A stretch of DNA of 45,125 nucleotides from Melioribacter sp. (GTDB lineage Bacteria; Bacteroidota; Ignavibacteria; Ignavibacteriales; Melioribacteraceae): the NCBI GenBank assembly GCA_003155655.1, contig PMDS01000063.1, positions 92,838-137,962 of the forward strand, given 5' to 3'. Shown piece by piece: positions 7,939-29,514 of the stretch (positions are counted from its first letter, which is position 1; the number at the start of each line of letters is the position of its first letter). The position numbers and the translations under genes are program-made. The notes under the pieces were generated by a model. That model had not been told where the DNA came from. It was given only the letters and a program-made list of their open reading frames with translations, and did not search any database.

Positions 7939-9009
7939 ATGATAAGAGAACTGACTGTGAAAAATTTTAGGGGCTTTGAACATTTGGAGATACCATCCCT
8001 TTCAAATTTTAATTTAATTATTGGTAAAAACAATGTTGGTAAGACTGCGTTATTAGAGGCTGTTTTTTTAAATGTTGGACAATTAAATACCGCAACACCA
8101 ATAAAAATTCAAAGTTTTCGCGGTATAAACGCACAAAAACTTAGTAATGAATTTCTCTGGGGTTTTATGTTCAATAAAGTCAATCTCAGCGAGACCATAG
8201 AAATTACTTCAATTGATAATATAAATCATATAAGAGCATTAAAAATCAACTTTGAAAGAAGTAATATTTCAAAAGGTCAAGCTAATCCAAAAATAAATGA
8301 GGTAGTTGCATCCGAGTCAGTACACTCAACTGATATTTCAAATGACGTATTAAAATTTACATTCAGAAAAGACAATGACCCATCCGAATATAGTTATGGT
8401 AAAATTCAAGATGGTGAAATCATTTATGATAATCTAAAAACATCTGATCTATATGGTATTTTTTGTACTTCTAATCGACAAGGAAGATCAACCGAGAATG
8501 CTGAAAGGTTTTCCTCTATCGATATTAAAGGACAACAAACAGATCTAATTAATATTTTACAAAAACTTGAACCGCGTTTGAAAAGATTATTAACTGTTCC
8601 GATTGGACCAGCATCATATATTTTTGGCGAATTAGATTTCGGGAGAGCAATACCTATCCAATTAATGGGTGAAGGAATTTCTCAATTAATTACAATTGCA
8701 CTAGCTATTATGACAGCTAAAGGTGGAATAGTCATGATTGATGAAATAGAAAATGGAATTCATTACAGTGTTATGCCAATAATTTATGATTCAATAATTG
8801 AATTAGCTAAAAGACAAGGCGTACAAATCTTTGCTACAACCCATAGTTATGAAACTATGAAATCTTTATTCCGCGTTTTTGAGAAAAAGGATTTAGAAAA
8901 TTTCTCTATTATAAGGTTAGATAGAAATGATAATAAGATTGATACAAAAGTTTACCATGATAAGAACGACTTAAAAATAATTTTTGATGAGAATTGGGAG
9001 ATAAGATGA
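7939..9009 (+). CDS. AAA/ABC-type ATPase of a two-gene ATPase-TOPRIM module (OLD/RecF-like)
   Basis: This is a 356-residue cytoplasmic SMC-like ATPase of the AAA_15/AAA_21 kind. Walker A is GKNNVGKT (residues 29-36), preceded by the usual LTVKNFRGF start. An ABC-like signature region GEGISQL lies near 247, Walker B is VMIDEIE (265-271), and the switch His is in TTHSY (His302). There is no TOPRIM domain in this chain; it is supplied by the next gene, whose ATG overlaps this stop codon as ATGA. That split resembles class 4 OLD systems such as PARIS, where an AriA ATPase holds an AriB TOPRIM effector. The start at 7939 follows GAGGTAAAT. Flanking genes are ordinary metabolism, so the pair looks like an acquired cassette. 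A role in phage defence is inference. Confidence 0.85.
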   Translation: MIRELTVKNFRGFEHLEIPSLSNFNLIIGKNNVGKTALLEAVFLNVGQLNTATPIKIQSFRGINAQKLSNEFLWGFMFNKVNLSETIEITSIDNINHIRALKINFERSNISKGQANPKINEVVASESVHSTDISNDVLKFTFRKDNDPSEYSYGKIQDGEIIYDNLKTSDLYGIFCTSNRQGRSTENAERFSSIDIKGQQTDLINILQKLEPRLKRLLTVPIGPASYIFGELDFGRAIPIQLMGEGISQLITIALAIMTAKGGIVMIDEIENGIHYSVMPIIYDSIIELAKRQGVQIFATTHSYETMKSLFRVFEKKDLENFSIIRLDRNDNKIDTKVYHDKNDLKIIFDENWEIR

Positions 9010-9614
9010 GTCTAAAAATCGAAAAGGAAAAAATTCTTATCGTCGAAGGGACTGATGAAGAAAGGATTTTCAATGTTCTAATTGGAAAACATTTAAATAA
9101 TTCCGATATTCAAATTCTTCCTATCGGCGGTAAGACACAATTAATAAATAAATTACGGATACTCTGTTCAGTAAGCGAATTTAATAAGGTAAGATCCCTC
9201 GGAATTGTAAGGGATGCTGACGAGGACTTTAATGGTGCATTTGAAAGTGTTTGCGATTCTCTAAGAGCTAATTCATTATCAATTCCATCTGGACCATTTA
9301 TTAAAACGAATTCAACACCGTCGATTTCGGTCTTTATAACTCCAAATAATTCAAGTAATGGTGCAATTGAGAATATTTTTTGGGAAGTAATAAATCAAAC
9401 TAATATTTCATCATGCATAACAAATTATTTCCAATGTATTCTTACAAATACTGGTTCAAATCCACGATCAATTTATAAAGGTTATATGCATGCTTATTTA
9501 TCAGCTAATATTGATAACCCAAGCCTTAGATTTGGAGAATCTGCAGAGAATGGTCTATGGGATTTTAATGATAATTGTTTTAATCTAATAAAATCTTTTA
9601 TTGCTAATATTTAA
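9006..9614 (+). CDS. TOPRIM-fold protein, DUF3226-like, partner of the upstream ATPase
   Basis: A 202-residue protein with TOPRIM hallmarks: the N-terminal strand ILIVEGTDEE with the metal-binding Glu14, and VRDADED with the DxD acidic pair at 70-72. The remaining sequence looks like DUF3226-type proteins, a family known mainly for this TOPRIM-like fold; the family name is a recognition by eye. The ATG at 9006 overlaps the TGA of the ATPase gene (ATGA), with a GGGAG ribosome-binding site 5-8 bases upstream. A TTG at 8994 in the same frame is a worse choice. TOPRIM proteins cut or bind nucleic acid, so this is probably the effector of the module, by analogy with AriB of PARIS (which is DUF4435, not this family). 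Confidence 0.8.
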   Translation: MSLKIEKEKILIVEGTDEERIFNVLIGKHLNNSDIQILPIGGKTQLINKLRILCSVSEFNKVRSLGIVRDADEDFNGAFESVCDSLRANSLSIPSGPFIKTNSTPSISVFITPNNSSNGAIENIFWEVINQTNISSCITNYFQCILTNTGSNPRSIYKGYMHAYLSANIDNPSLRFGESAENGLWDFNDNCFNLIKSFIANI

Positions 9615-12985: not shown

Positions 12986-15900
12986 ATGAGCCAACAAGAA
13001 ATCGAAAAACAAATTAAATCCATTCCTGGTAATGAACCGGTTCTTGAAAAACTTTATGAGCTTCTTGATTCAGAAAACGCTATTGCATTTGTTGGTGCTG
13101 GTGCCTCTGCTGGGTTATGGCCAATGTGGGATGAGTTTCTCAAAAATTTTATTGAATATACTTTAGTTCTAGGAAAAATAAACCAGCCTGAATCCGAATA
13201 TTTTTTAAAAAAATATTCTCAAGAACCTTTGAAAATTGCTCAGCAATTGAAAAATAAAATAGGAGAGCCAAATTATTTCGATTATCTCCATAACACTTTT
13301 AAGGATAAACTTTCTCAACAGACAGGTGGTGCCTTTACTTTAAATCATAGATTATTATTACAACTTCCAATACACAATTATGTAACCTTAAACTATGATG
13401 CCGGGTTAACAAATGCCAGAGCTGATTTATATCCCAAAGCCACAACCTCTTATTTTTTCTGGGATCAGGAAGAGATTAGAAAAATTCGTGAACGTGGTTA
13501 TGAAAGATTAGTATTACATGCTCACGGTCGTCATGACAGAGCTAATTCTATTGTATTGACATTAGATGATTATAGAAGAGCCTATGACAACTCCGCTTTC
13601 GTGAGGTTATTAAATGATATTTTTAATTATGAACAATTATTGTTCGTTGGTTTCGGAATGGGCGACCCGTATATAAATTATTTGTTCAATAACATCAAAA
13701 AAGATAGTTCCAAAACATCCTTTCGGCATATTGCTCTTGTTGGTTTAAATAATATGGAAATGCAAGTTGCACATCTACACAGGGACGGTATTGAAATGAT
13801 TTATGGTGCAAGTGTTTTGTTTTATCCCATAGAGAACCAACACAAGGCTTTACAAGAATGGTTGATTATGTTGGCAGAGAAATATAAGACCTCTCCCGGA
13901 AGCAGCACTGCAAAAGAGACTATACCATTACCGTCTTCACCAGAAATAAAAGCTGCGATCAAAGATAAATACATTCATAAACCGACAGATGATGAAAATT
14001 TTAAAGGTAGGTCACAGGATTTTATTACTTTGAATCGTTGGGCTAATGATCCGGATACACGAACAATTGCTATAACCGGAATTGGCGGGCAGGGCAAAAC
14101 TGCTTTAACCGGACGCTGGTTAAAACAGGAGCGAATTGAAAATCTAAAAAATGTTCCTGTTCTTTATTGGAGTTTTTATGAAGATTTGGACGTACAAAAA
14201 TTTTTAGAGGAAGTCGTAAATTTTTGTTCACCGATAGTTAGGATAATCGGCAAGCCCAAAACTGAACCTGTCTCATTTATTCTTAGTGTGGTTCAGCAAG
14301 CCCGCTTGTTATTAGTATTGGATGGTATCGAAGTGCTGCAGGAAGATGTCTCAAGTCCCAATCATGGAAGAATAAGTCATCCTTTATTATTTCCGTTCCT
14401 ACAAAATTGGGTAAGGATACCACATAAGGGATTGATGATTTTAACAAGCCGTTTCCATTTCCCTCAACTACAACAATACAGCGGTATTGGTTTTCACCAT
14501 TTAGACCTTTTTAGGTTAAGTCAAGAAGAAGGTGTTGCATTACTAAAAAAATTAAATGTCATCGGTGATCAACAAATTTTAGGAAATTATGTTGAAAGAT
14601 TATTTGGACATCCATTAGCGTTGCGTGTTCTTGCTAGTGCAGTAAAGAGAATCTACTTCGGTGATCTTTCTCAGTTTAATGGCGAACAGCTATTAAGTGA
14701 TGAAGATGACAACAGATTAAACGAAAAGTTAAAACATTTACTGAATTTTTATGAAAAACAATTAAAGGGCGGACAAAAAGAATTGCTTGGCATTATTAGT
14801 CTCTTTAAACGCCCTGTTGAAATAAAAAGTTTTGTAACCCTGTTAAGCAAAATGAAATCTCTTGAGAACACACCTTTGGCAAAAGCTGATGTTTATACAG
14901 TAGAAGAACAAATTAAAGTATTGATAGATGATTTCCTAATTGAAAAGACAAAAGATGGCATTACTACACACCCTATAATTCGTGACTATTTCCGTTCTGG
15001 TTGCAAAATAACAGGCTCCAGACGTGAAGTAGCTGATTTTCTAAAATCCAGACCTGGTGCAGAAAGACCAAAGAATATTGAGGAAGTGCATGATCTTGTT
15101 GAAGCAGTACAATTATTATGTGACGAAAAAGAGTTTAAGGCGGCTGAAAATTTATTTACAGCACGATTGGCACAAGGAGGTTATGGATTTAACGTATTCC
15201 TTAGTCTTCCCGCTATTATTGAAGGTTTGGAATGTGTTCTGGCATTTGTTGGCGCTCAAGATAAAATAATTAATGTTGAAAAGATCTTAGGGAAAAGTTT
15301 TGTTGCATTTCATTGTACTGGTGTTTCTCTTTATAATTATTATCTTGGAAATCTTGAAAATGCAATTGAATGGTGTCATCAATCGCTGGAAATCAACAAA
15401 CAATTAAATTTTATATCTGCTCAAACTATTAATTTGTATGCAATATCATCAATTGAATTATCAATGGGTAATATTAAAAAGGCTATTGAAACAGTATCTC
15501 TAGCATTAACATGTTCTTTTGAGATCAAAGATTTAAATAATTTTAGGAGTGAATTTGCATACAAAGCATATTATCAATTTCTTTTAGGTAACTCCAAACA
15601 GGCATACAAAGATTTTGAATTTGCCCTCCTCTGTACACAAAAAATAAAATCTAATGCAAAACAATTGTCATCCATTTGGGGAAATCAACAAGCTGAATTT
15701 TTCATCCGTATTCATGCCTGGAAACAATTTAAAGAAGTAAATGCTCGGAACATTAAAGTTTGTACCGAATATCTATGGAACGATACATATGCATTTTGCT
15801 ATTTTCTCCAGGGCTGGTATGAAATTTACAATAATCAATTAATCAAAGCAGAAAATGAATTGTCCAAAGCAGAACAGATTCTGCGACCTTCCGGCATGCT

Positions 15901-16393
15901 GGAACATATTTGTAGATTAGACTGGGTCTGGGCTTTACTTGCAGAAGCAAAAGAAGATTACCAAAAGGGTTTGAAACATGTCAATGATGCATTACTTGTT
16001 TGTGCTGATAAAGGATTTCGTTTATGGCAGGCTGATAATTTTGTTTTACGTGGGCGTTTATATCTATTACAATTCAATAAAGAGAATAAACAAAATAGAG
16101 ATCTGTTGGAAAAAGCCGGAGATGATGGCAGGAGAGCTTTAGAAATTGCTGAAAATACGGGCTATATTTGGGCTAAAGTGGACGCGATAAAACTACTTAG
16201 TTCCTACCATCAAACAAGAGAACGGATTCCAGATATAGATAAAGAAAAGGAGAAAGAATTTGCCCAACGTCATTCTAAAGAGGCAGCTGAAATAGAAAAA
16301 GGGCTGTACCTAACAGAAAAAGAAATGGAGGAGCTTAAAGAGCAGGCAAGAAAGGAATTCGAAGAACAAACCAAAGATTGGGACAAAAAATAA
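12986..16393 (+). CDS. SIR2-STAND NTPase-TPR protein, Avs5-like antiviral sensor candidate
   Basis: A 1135-residue three-part protein. Residues ~25-290 are a SIR2-like NADase domain: FVGAGAS (35-41), TLNYD with Asn136, HAHG with His180, and VGFGMGDP (221-228). Residues ~340-680 are a STAND/NB-ARC NTPase: GIGGQGKT Walker A (365-372), LLLVLDG Walker B (441-447), LTSR sensor (486-489) and GHPLALR (541-547), followed by a winged-helix region. The rest is TPR-like helical repeats with a charged coiled tail. Known SIR2-STAND proteins (Avs5) recognise phage proteins through the TPR part and then deplete NAD+. All SIR2 and NTPase key residues are present, so it looks intact. It stands alone, with repeats on both flanks. 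The phage trigger is unknown. Confidence 0.88.
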   Translation: MSQQEIEKQIKSIPGNEPVLEKLYELLDSENAIAFVGAGASAGLWPMWDEFLKNFIEYTLVLGKINQPESEYFLKKYSQEPLKIAQQLKNKIGEPNYFDYLHNTFKDKLSQQTGGAFTLNHRLLLQLPIHNYVTLNYDAGLTNARADLYPKATTSYFFWDQEEIRKIRERGYERLVLHAHGRHDRANSIVLTLDDYRRAYDNSAFVRLLNDIFNYEQLLFVGFGMGDPYINYLFNNIKKDSSKTSFRHIALVGLNNMEMQVAHLHRDGIEMIYGASVLFYPIENQHKALQEWLIMLAEKYKTSPGSSTAKETIPLPSSPEIKAAIKDKYIHKPTDDENFKGRSQDFITLNRWANDPDTRTIAITGIGGQGKTALTGRWLKQERIENLKNVPVLYWSFYEDLDVQKFLEEVVNFCSPIVRIIGKPKTEPVSFILSVVQQARLLLVLDGIEVLQEDVSSPNHGRISHPLLFPFLQNWVRIPHKGLMILTSRFHFPQLQQYSGIGFHHLDLFRLSQEEGVALLKKLNVIGDQQILGNYVERLFGHPLALRVLASAVKRIYFGDLSQFNGEQLLSDEDDNRLNEKLKHLLNFYEKQLKGGQKELLGIISLFKRPVEIKSFVTLLSKMKSLENTPLAKADVYTVEEQIKVLIDDFLIEKTKDGITTHPIIRDYFRSGCKITGSRREVADFLKSRPGAERPKNIEEVHDLVEAVQLLCDEKEFKAAENLFTARLAQGGYGFNVFLSLPAIIEGLECVLAFVGAQDKIINVEKILGKSFVAFHCTGVSLYNYYLGNLENAIEWCHQSLEINKQLNFISAQTINLYAISSIELSMGNIKKAIETVSLALTCSFEIKDLNNFRSEFAYKAYYQFLLGNSKQAYKDFEFALLCTQKIKSNAKQLSSIWGNQQAEFFIRIHAWKQFKEVNARNIKVCTEYLWNDTYAFCYFLQGWYEIYNNQLIKAENELSKAEQILRPSGMLEHICRLDWVWALLAEAKEDYQKGLKHVNDALLVCADKGFRLWQADNFVLRGRLYLLQFNKENKQNRDLLEKAGDDGRRALEIAENTGYIWAKVDAIKLLSSYHQTRERIPDIDKEKEKEFAQRHSKEAAEIEKGLYLTEKEMEELKEQARKEFEEQTKDWDKK

Positions 16394-27097: not shown

Positions 27098-27931
27098 TTA
27101 TAGTAAATATTCTGTTTTTTCTTTAGGCGGTTCGATTTCTAAAAATTCTCGATATATTCTATCCTTATAAACTTTTCCTAGTTTATTTATCTCTTCAATG
27201 AACAATCTATAGGTGCCTTTTCCGCCAATAAAATCCCAGAATTCTTCGCCGATAAGGACAACTTTATCTTTACGCATATCAAACCAGCGAGATGGGAATG
27301 ACCAAGCATAATTTTCTTTTTTCCCATATGGATTATAAGGTAATACAAAAAATGCATCAGCTATTATTTTTGGTTCCATACTGTAAAGTTTTAAAATCTT
27401 TTCTTTACTAACTTTAGTAATATCACTATTAGGAAGCGGGGATTTCAATTCAAAAGCATATTTCTTTTTATTAACTGTATCTTCGGCATATACATCACAA
27501 ACAATTCTTGTAGGTAAAAGTTTTCCCTTTCCTTTTAGTATATATTTTAATTCTTCCTCCCAATTAGGAGTCTGCCTTTTCTTACCTTCAATTGGATGTT
27601 CTAAAAGAGCAAGAATTTCCGAAATTCTTCTCAATCTTTCTTGTGGAATATTTCCAGAAATAGTTTTACCAGTTTCAGAATAACCCAAACCGGATTCCGC
27701 AGATAATTTTGCAAGTTTTTCCCACACACCTCCGAAGGGTGTTACAAATCTTCTTTCGAAGTGTGAACCTTTAAAAATCTCGTCAGGAACAAGCGCTGCA
27801 TAAAGAGGTTTATTGGCTCTATGATCTTCAACAATAAAAGGATCTTCCTCAAGAACTCGGATCATTACTCTATCCATTAGTGCTTTCACTAATTCTCTAA
27901 TAGCTTGAGATATTTTTTCGGCTTTGCTCAT
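27098..27931 (-). CDS. Type II restriction endonuclease, TdeIII/MjaII-like
   Basis: A 277-residue protein recognised as resembling the TdeIII/MjaII restriction enzyme family (members cut GGNCC). The PD-(D/E)xK nuclease core is visible: RIVCDVYAED followed about 11 residues later by AFELKSPL, giving Asp and the Glu-x-Lys pair. The N-terminal region with FGGVWEKLAK is typical of the family. The gene begins two bases after the stop of the methyltransferase gene, the normal arrangement of a type II pair. Specificity for GGNCC is inference from family. No control (C) protein gene is seen. Confidence 0.75.
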   Translation of the reverse strand: MSKAEKISQAIRELVKALMDRVMIRVLEEDPFIVEDHRANKPLYAALVPDEIFKGSHFERRFVTPFGGVWEKLAKLSAESGLGYSETGKTISGNIPQERLRRISEILALLEHPIEGKKRQTPNWEEELKYILKGKGKLLPTRIVCDVYAEDTVNKKKYAFELKSPLPNSDITKVSKEKILKLYSMEPKIIADAFFVLPYNPYGKKENYAWSFPSRWFDMRKDKVVLIGEEFWDFIGGKGTYRLFIEEINKLGKVYKDRIYREFLEIEPPKEKTEYLL

Positions 27932-27933
27932 CT

Positions 27934-29514
27934 TTATTTCTCTTTGAAATGAAATATACTTTCCGAGTACGCATTTTTATCTTTTTCCGTTCTGTTAAGA
28001 ACTGGTCTTTTAAATTCTTTGACAATTCTCATTCCTGCTTTTTCAGCAATAATTGGATACATTTTATACTTATCGTTTGCTACAAGAAAGATATTATAAT
28101 CTTCAGCTAAATACTTCTTACAATTATTCAACACAGCTGAAATTCCTTCGATGTAAGATACTTTAGCTTCTTTTCCTTGCCCTTTATAAAGTGATCCTAT
28201 TTCCAATTTATCATTCCTCTTAAAACCAAATAAGTCGTAAGCGTAAGCATGCTGTTCATGATAGTTTATTAAACCAACATATGGTGGACTAGAAAATATG
28301 CCACTTATTTTATTCTCTTTTAATTGCTTAGCAAAAGCGAGATTTTCTTTGTCCAATTCGTTCAAAAAATCAATATTTTTACTGTCACCAGAAAAGCAAT
28401 GTTGATATGTATTTGTTCTTAACGCATTAAATTCAGATAGCCGTTTTAAAGTATCAACAGAATATCTTTCCCACCAACCTACAATTGAAAATAACGGTTT
28501 GCATATTTTGGCATGTTTTGAACAATAGTATGTAGTCGTGATTGGTTCAAGTAAAGTCGCTAAATCTGAATGCGTTGTAGCACGGCAGGAACGAATTGTT
28601 CTGCTAAGAATAATTGTTGTAACTTTTTTTATTTCAGGATTTTTAATTTTCTTTATCAGATCAAAAACAAAATCAATTTCGTCTCTAACATGTTTCAAGA
28701 ACCATATATCTAAAAAAGTCTCTGACTTTTCCTGTTTTAATTCAATGTCATACTTTTTAATTAGTTTTTTATAAATAGGCGAAAAAGATTTTTCTTTTTC
28801 ACGACAATAGACATCTTCATCAACTTGATCATTTATTATTTTGATTTTAAAATCAGGTGATGGGAAAAATTCATTATTGAACTCAAAAAGCTTGTCAAGT
28901 AATTCTTTTTCAAACTCCACTGTTTTCGAATCAACAATAAATTCTTTTAGTAATTCTGTAATCTTTTTTAATTCACTATTTAATTCTACTAAATTGTATT
29001 TACCAACTTTTACATTACTCATCAATGAATTAAACAAAGAGACATCAACCCCCAAAGCATGAATTCCTAATTCATTTGCTTGAACCAAAGTTGTTCCACT
29101 GCCACAAAAAGGGTCTAAAACAATATCGCCTTTTTTAAAATAAACTTCCTTCTTGAATTCATCTGTATTATTATCTAAAAAATATTCCACAAGTTGCGGA
29201 ATGAATTTACCTTTATATGGATGAAGTCTGTGAACATGTTTTGTTGTTTCTGCTTCTTTAAATTTTTCAAATGAGAGATGCCAATCTATATCACCACCAA
29301 GTTTCTCTTTCCAGTTTAATTGCCTCTCACCATAATAAGATTTATAATAGCTTAAAATCTCCGCCTTACTTACAAAAGTATTACCATTTTCCCCATATTT
29401 ATTTATTCTGCCATAATTCAATAAATATGAAATGTTCGATGATGTAACATTTCTGTTTAGCTCAAGACTAATCCATTCGCTTGCTTCTTTAATTGTCAAC
29501 AGTTCATTCTGCAT
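27934..29514 (-). CDS. DNA methyltransferase of the type II R-M pair, probably N4-cytosine
   Basis: A 526-residue DNA amino-methyltransferase that would protect the host sites of the adjacent nuclease. Residues 1-60 look like a helix-turn-helix module (LTIKEASEWISLELN... VSKAEILSYY), a possible DNA-binding or autoregulatory part. The AdoMet site is DPFCGSGTT (134-142) and the catalytic motif is SSPPY (408-412). The SPPY form and the I-before-IV order point to N4-cytosine methylation. A long 260-residue insert between the motifs probably holds target recognition. It lies 46 bases after queC and two bases before the nuclease gene. Confidence 0.9.
   Translation of the reverse strand: MQNELLTIKEASEWISLELNRNVTSSNISYLLNYGRINKYGENGNTFVSKAEILSYYKSYYGERQLNWKEKLGGDIDWHLSFEKFKEAETTKHVHRLHPYKGKFIPQLVEYFLDNNTDEFKKEVYFKKGDIVLDPFCGSGTTLVQANELGIHALGVDVSLFNSLMSNVKVGKYNLVELNSELKKITELLKEFIVDSKTVEFEKELLDKLFEFNNEFFPSPDFKIKIINDQVDEDVYCREKEKSFSPIYKKLIKKYDIELKQEKSETFLDIWFLKHVRDEIDFVFDLIKKIKNPEIKKVTTIILSRTIRSCRATTHSDLATLLEPITTTYYCSKHAKICKPLFSIVGWWERYSVDTLKRLSEFNALRTNTYQHCFSGDSKNIDFLNELDKENLAFAKQLKENKISGIFSSPPYVGLINYHEQHAYAYDLFGFKRNDKLEIGSLYKGQGKEAKVSYIEGISAVLNNCKKYLAEDYNIFLVANDKYKMYPIIAEKAGMRIVKEFKRPVLNRTEKDKNAYSESIFHFKEK

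Follow-up and report, generated by a model that had tools for sequence, protein, structure and literature searches.

Does the long open reading frame (ORF) at positions 12986-16393 of a 45,125-nucleotide stretch of Melioribacter sp. DNA (contig PMDS01000063.1; the whole stretch is called the window below) encode an Avs5-like protein, as an earlier note made from the sequence alone had proposed, or a receptor of another kind? The ORF starts with ATG and runs through 1135 codons without an internal stop, so the gene is intact, as the note had it. Judging by sequence comparison and analogy, its product, P0001, is probably a SIR2–NB-ARC–TPR protein, that is, an NADase resembling NLRs (nucleotide-binding, leucine-rich repeat receptors) that would sense infection and act as a stand-alone receptor against invaders. 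The label "Avs5-like" is not supported, since the nSTAND3 domain was not found in P0001 and its NTPase is most like those of the NB-ARC/AP-ATPase class.

A search of the source genome (4.62 Mb, 137 contigs) returned a single match, which covers the whole protein and lies in a 1140-residue open frame. Scanning of contigs retrieved relatives in a metagenome-assembled genome (MAG) labelled Pseudomonadota (L004; 68% identity over residues 1-1128) and in a MAG labelled only "bacterium" (L003; 49% identity over residues 1-1034). The latter copy (L003:2363-6184) has lost its C-terminal end near an ORF read as a transposase and may be disrupted. Two further relatives are more distant: G391 shares 27.5% identity with P0001 over 1146 alignment columns, and G428 shares 27.8% over 1143. 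Since the frame is 1135 residues long and has near end-to-end relatives in distant lineages, it is not a product of chance.

The N-terminal part of P0001 matches the Pfam family SIR2_2 (PF13289) at residues 132-256 (E 4e-18), and no other sirtuin family was listed by Pfam at E ≤ 1. All GAGxS, TxNYD and HG residues of ThsA-type defence SIR2 domains are present, as GAGAS 37-41, N136, D138 and H180. Asn136 and His180, which had been named as the NADase residues, are indeed found at these positions and are identical in five of five proteins (P0001, P0002, G391 and G428, all full length, and P0003, shortened at its C-terminus). Across this set, each of the 24 positions checked in the SIR2 and STAND motifs holds the same residue. 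N136 is paired by phmmer with the asparagine of ThsA that appears as Ala in PDB chain 8bto. A five-row SIR2 profile compared with solved structures gave 18 matches at E ≤ 10; ThsA (2.4e-15) and FAM118B (4.2e-15) were the best, and further matches included KomC (1.5e-9), which is named "NADase", and a DSR2-labelled chain (3.7e-6). The ThsA, Dsr1 and LmuA models of PADLOC match the SIR2 part, and a TPR model gave a weak match. No Avs match was obtained at E ≤ 0.01 from this library, which may or may not include an Avs5 model, and NCBIfam gave no match.

The NTPase motifs claimed earlier can be seen in the central part of P0001 as Walker A, D446, R489 and GHP, with the checked positions identical in all five proteins. 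To which class does this NTPase belong? According to PMC12931631, the tested PaAvs5 proteins combine PF13289, PF20720 (nSTAND3) and repeats; nSTAND3 is described there for these proteins, not for every Avs5. In P0001, nSTAND3 was not detected by hmmscan at E ≤ 1; a genome search at E ≤ 10, whose first step is a filter, gave 88 matches elsewhere and none at the P0001 locus. When the STAND region of the family was compared by hhalign with single representatives of two classes, a Nostoc NB-ARC-WD40 protein aligned over 326 residues with a probability of 99.3 and a NACHT-HEAT protein of the same Melioribacter genome reached only 8.4. A set of ten nSTAND3 proteins, mostly Mrr-type and not Avs5, reached 74.5 in a 61-residue alignment located away from the P-loop, and a Hymenobacter SIR2-STAND protein reached 19.3. 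Independently of this comparison, the best solved matches of a five-row STAND profile were PH0952 (3.9e-4) and the plant protein CNL9/Sr35 (~0.006), both weak. A tblastn search of plasmids with full-length P0001 matched 46 records, and 18 of the 20 listed had the match on NB-ARC- or WD40-annotated proteins. Pfam ranks NB-ARC over NACHT in P0002 and lists only NB-ARC in G428. Thus, the P0001 NTPase looks NB-ARC/AP-ATPase-like. Both an N-terminal SIR2_2 effector and a C-terminal repeat sensor, as in Avs5, were found, the latter being not specific to Avs5; judged by the published domain description, membership of P0001 in Avs5 was rejected.

The C-terminal half matched LGN/GPSM2 TPR chains in a profile search (best E 2.6e-12) as well as the TPR part of PH0952, and in the relative P0003 TPR_12 scores 32.7 bits, above the cut-off. 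The combination of SIR2, STAND and TPR in one protein is borne out. The sensor had also been expected to be the variable part, and residues ~781-960, bounds that we set after inspecting sliding windows, are the fastest-changing part of the protein. Between G428 and G391, non-synonymous difference is 0.22-0.35 in windows from 782 to 991 (G428 numbering) versus 0.007-0.121 up to 720, and 81 of 179 residues differ in the core versus 104 of 876 elsewhere. The contrast is weaker for P0001 and P0002, with 0.24-0.32 in windows from 751 to 990 versus 0.10-0.28 up to 690 and 84 of 180 differing residues in the core versus 237 of 845 in the remaining counted segments. For G504C and G428 the difference is 0.29-0.38 across most sensor windows, and the windows for G504C and G391 are mixed, one sensor window standing at 0.092. 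In all five pairs tested, which overlap one another and from which residues 301-335 and those beyond 1060 were excluded, the core was the more divergent (p from 2.5e-22 to 0.018, post hoc). In the two P0003 pairs with a value for the C-terminal end (0.57 and 0.58), this end is nearly as divergent as the core. For most comparisons that involve P0001, synonymous divergence (dS) has reached saturation. For G428 and G391 (L030:5995-9378 and L029:6957-10352), the proportion of synonymous differences (pS) is 0.25 in SIR2 and climbs to 0.58 in the sensor, a rise that suggests exchange of the sensor by recombination as a possible alternative to selection. The features of the gene are collected in Table 1.

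Table 1. Features of the SIR2-STAND-TPR gene and their positions in the window.
Feature	Residues	Position	Strand	Basis
SIR2-STAND(NB-ARC-like)-TPR gene, P0001	1-1135	12986..16393	+	ORF of 1135 residues, Pfam scan, search of own genome
SIR2_2 NADase-type domain	~1-300 (Pfam match 132-256)	12986..13885	+	Pfam, ThsA alignment, SIR2 profile
GAGAS NAD-binding motif	37-41	13094..13108	+	Sequence; invariant in five-sequence alignment
Asn136 (TLNYD), predicted catalytic	136	13391..13393	+	Aligned with ThsA Asn; 5/5 proteins
His180 (HG motif), predicted catalytic	180	13523..13525	+	5/5 proteins
STAND NTPase and winged-helix region, NB-ARC/AP-ATPase-like	~336-680	13991..15025	+	Profile comparisons
Walker A, GIGGQGKT	365-372 (367, 368, 370-372 identical 5/5; 365, 369 vary)	14078..14101	+	Alignment
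Walker B Asp446 (LLLVLDG)	446	14321..14323	+	5/5 proteins
TSR; Arg489, candidate nucleotide-sensing arginine by presumed role	487-489	14444..14452	+	5/5 proteins
GHP, which we take to be the GxP-type motif of STAND	541-543	14606..14614	+	5/5 proteins
Arm and TPR-type sensor	~681-1100	15026..16285	+	Pfam, profile matches; helical in low-confidence model
Fast-changing sensor core	~781-960	15326..15865	+	Sliding windows, counts; bounds set after inspection

The gene is rare and scattered across lineages. Surveys with a three-row profile, in which the source genome counts among the matches, found it in 1 of 164 genomes of the source order and 4 of 395 of the phylum. The three other matching genomes of the phylum belong to one family, in whose order 3 of 98 genomes match. 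One of the five genomes of the order of L004 (whose phylum has nine genomes in the set) and one of the two of the class of L003 match as well. A single-protein search of the source's own family matched 2 of 79 genomes, the second over residues 16-301 only (26% identity). The patchy spread and the 68% identity across different phyla point to horizontal transfer. GC content at third codon positions is 0.258 in the gene versus 0.277-0.349 in seven neighbours, a weak difference.

How might such a protein work? By analogy with TPR-sensor STAND proteins, which are doubly autoinhibited (PMC6468293), and with the TIR-NLR of P4-like satellites (PMC9122126), an ADP-bound nucleotide-binding oligomerization domain (NOD) of the NB-ARC class would be kept closed by the arm and the TPR sensor. 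A ligand derived from the invader would dock on the variable TPR core, upon which the NOD would open and swap ADP for ATP and the protomers would multimerise. The N-terminal SIR2 domains, clustered in this way, would hydrolyse NAD+ (nicotinamide adenine dinucleotide) using N136 and H180, and the loss of NAD+ would lead to growth stop or death of the infected cell. In this scheme NADase activity, the ADP/ATP switch, oligomerisation, the role in defence and the kind of ligand are inferred from relatives. ThsA and Avs5 are switched on by filament formation (PMC12700824). The TIR-STAND-TPR protein known as TIR-NLR defends E. coli, and SIR2 can stand in for TIR in STAND-repeat proteins (PMC9122126); related conflict systems are described in PMC8195603. 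Other defence-type loci, present in the window and, by ORF reading, in the genome, were also counted for a defence role, which we grade as probable.

Among known systems, TIR-NLR and the SIR2-STAND-repeat proteins (PMC9122126) share with P0001 an NAD-acting N-terminus, a central STAND and C-terminal repeats in one protein, although the protein tested carries TIR, not SIR2, and both kinds were compared by their descriptions. Avs5 (AVAST type 5) has the same SIR2_2 effector, STAND and repeat sensor, but its tested proteins contain nSTAND3 where P0001 is NB-ARC-like, and PaAvs5-1 has NG in place of the HG of P0001 (H180), the two being about equally common in Avs5 (PMC12931631). PH0952 and MalT resemble P0001 in their NOD and TPR sensor and differ in having no SIR2 effector (PMC6468293); PH0952 is the best solved match of the STAND profile and is also matched by the TPR part. 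The likeness to ThsA of the Thoeris system, an SIR2_2 NADase, is confined to the SIR2 part. Activation of ThsA depends on a signal molecule. DSR1 and DSR2, like P0001, carry SIR2_2 at the N-terminus of a large protein, and the Dsr1 model of PADLOC matches residues 9-265 and 176-301 only. The match to the NB-ARC of the plant NLR Sr35 covers profile positions 25-126; Sr35 has coiled-coil and leucine-rich repeat parts, unlike P0001.

Several results weigh against the SIR2–NB-ARC–TPR reading. Three Pfam matches in P0001 stay below their curated cut-offs (NACHT, 25.0 versus 26.7 bits; NB-ARC, 13.7 versus 23.5; TPR_12, 23.8 versus 30.1), NACHT is ranked over NB-ARC in P0001 and P0003, and neither is listed in G391, which we counted against the NB-ARC class. 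The hhalign comparison with NB-ARC is biased, since the Nostoc protein was picked from P0001's own matches. Structure models are poor for the full-length protein (pLDDT, predicted local distance difference test, 47.4) and for the STAND region alone (49.5), so that PH0952, ranked first in a PDB search with the former, carries little weight. A search of a phage collection (E ≤ 1e-5) and two scans of viral contigs gave no match. One solved SIR2 match, 9v0g (3.6e-9), has chains named "NAD-dependent protein deacetylase", and the other scanned window proteins are mostly housekeeping or metabolic rather than forming a dense island.

Some of these points would fit a regulatory STAND of the MalT or PH0952 kind whose SIR2 domain modifies or deacylates host proteins: PH0952 is the closest solved STAND, many neighbours are metabolic and the deacetylase is among the SIR2 matches. 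We nevertheless regard this as improbable, as SIR2_2 is the only sirtuin family found by Pfam at E ≤ 1, ThsA and FAM118B are the best solved matches of the domain, and a match in a single genome of the order is unlike a core regulator. We give similarly little credence to the idea that P0001 is a genuine Avs5 after all, a divergent member responding to a protein of phages, for instance JADA from nucleus-forming jumbo phages. The two agree in domain order and in consisting of one gene, and, as Avs5 clades are mutually only 18-21% identical with poorly conserved NTPase and repeats (PMC12931631), a profile match might have been missed; against this stand the absence of nSTAND3 at the thresholds given above and the short alignment of the nSTAND3 set, mostly Mrr-type, relative to that of NB-ARC. 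A somewhat better case, though still an unlikely one, can be made for the same machine being triggered by plasmids, conjugation or host damage instead of a phage protein. The lack of a phage-borne copy in the searches above speaks for it, as does the presence in the window of an AAA and TOPRIM-type pair and a type II restriction-modification (RM) pair; RM systems are active against invading DNA of various kinds. On the other side, the TIR-STAND-TPR protein that was tested is anti-phage (PMC9122126). We retain the infection-sensing SIR2–NB-ARC–TPR receptor as the probable reading.

Proteins that combine parts of this architecture were also seen elsewhere. Among 15 plasmid SIR2 loci, 14 encode proteins of ~260-490 residues and one a 1179-residue Hymenobacter canadensis protein (L052:3977-7516, forward strand) with SIR2_2 and STAND and with weak NB-ARC and nSTAND3 matches; its gene adjoins integrase and recombinase genes, and the protein is predicted to represent another SIR2-STAND lineage. 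In a 1319-residue SIR2 protein of Methylorubrum no STAND was matched at E ≤ 0.001, and at five further plasmid loci no SIR2 protein was found on reading, one loose GAGxS match in an ORF being taken as chance. PF20720 matched in 12 of 395 genomes; in the 13 stretches examined, GAGxS near the N-terminus was flagged in none of 12 ORFs with at least 700 residues and a P-loop. PDB chain 9jap ("SIR2-like domain-containing protein", 869 residues) matches the SIR2 profile at 1.4e-4 and is absent among the best 60 of 179 matches of the nSTAND3 set; that it may be an Avs5 is our guess.

The gene lies 263 bases from a lipocalin gene and 155 bases from one for a LigB-type dioxygenase. At six loci of relatives (L003, L004, L029, L030, L031 and L032) no window ORF besides the gene itself was matched; a conserved partner gene was accordingly rejected, and the description of the gene as solitary proved right for the loci read. 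G428 and G504, of one genus, have an AcrB-type gene in common on the upstream side, as would be expected from common descent; on that side, genes for a CAP-domain protein and TRCF are found in G391, and a Uma2 gene in L004. LigB homologues occur in 6 of 12 genomes of the genus, the source included. No insertion boundary was found, the stretches from four of the five other LigB genomes containing no other window ORF (E ≤ 1e-8). At 7939-9614 (forward strand) a gene for an AAA_21 ATPase (356 residues) overlaps a DUF3226/TOPRIM-like gene (206 residues); the nearest PADLOC models are AbiLi, PDC-M38A/B and AriA/AriB, and the pair is predicted to be a PARIS/AbiL-like two-gene defence system. At 27098-29514 (reverse strand) a TdeIII-type restriction endonuclease gene lies beside a DNA methyltransferase gene, forming the type II RM pair. 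The window thus holds separate defence loci rather than an island. Elsewhere in the same genome, L037:4200-7406 (forward strand, G000 contig 73) encodes a NACHT protein of 1068 residues that carries numerous closely similar HEAT repeats, a second NLR-like candidate whose repeat number may vary, and L038:2992-6229 (forward strand, G000 contig 2) holds adjacent genes read as McrB (a P-loop NTPase) and McrC.

In titles and abstract openings of the open-access PMC literature we found no description of a SIR2-NB-ARC-TPR lineage; the distance from known systems is modest, since TIR- and SIR2-STAND-repeat defence proteins are already published. Annotation tools would miss the gene, as PADLOC matches it only in part and NCBIfam not at all. 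Tentatively, and with more doubt than conviction, the family can be pictured as a separate bacterial resistosome lineage, in which an NB-ARC NOD and its TPR sensor carry an SIR2 NADase rather than TIR. It would have spread by transfer through lineages that are seldom sampled, and pressure from ligands that differ from those of Avs1-5 would have led its TPR core to diversify or to be exchanged. The name "SIR2-STAND" covers two things that are easily confused, Avs5 with its nSTAND3 and an NB-ARC-like lineage of NLR type, and the fast-changing sensor core gives a bounded candidate region for ligand binding in the latter. One type of effector seems to have been combined with NTPase switches of different kinds.

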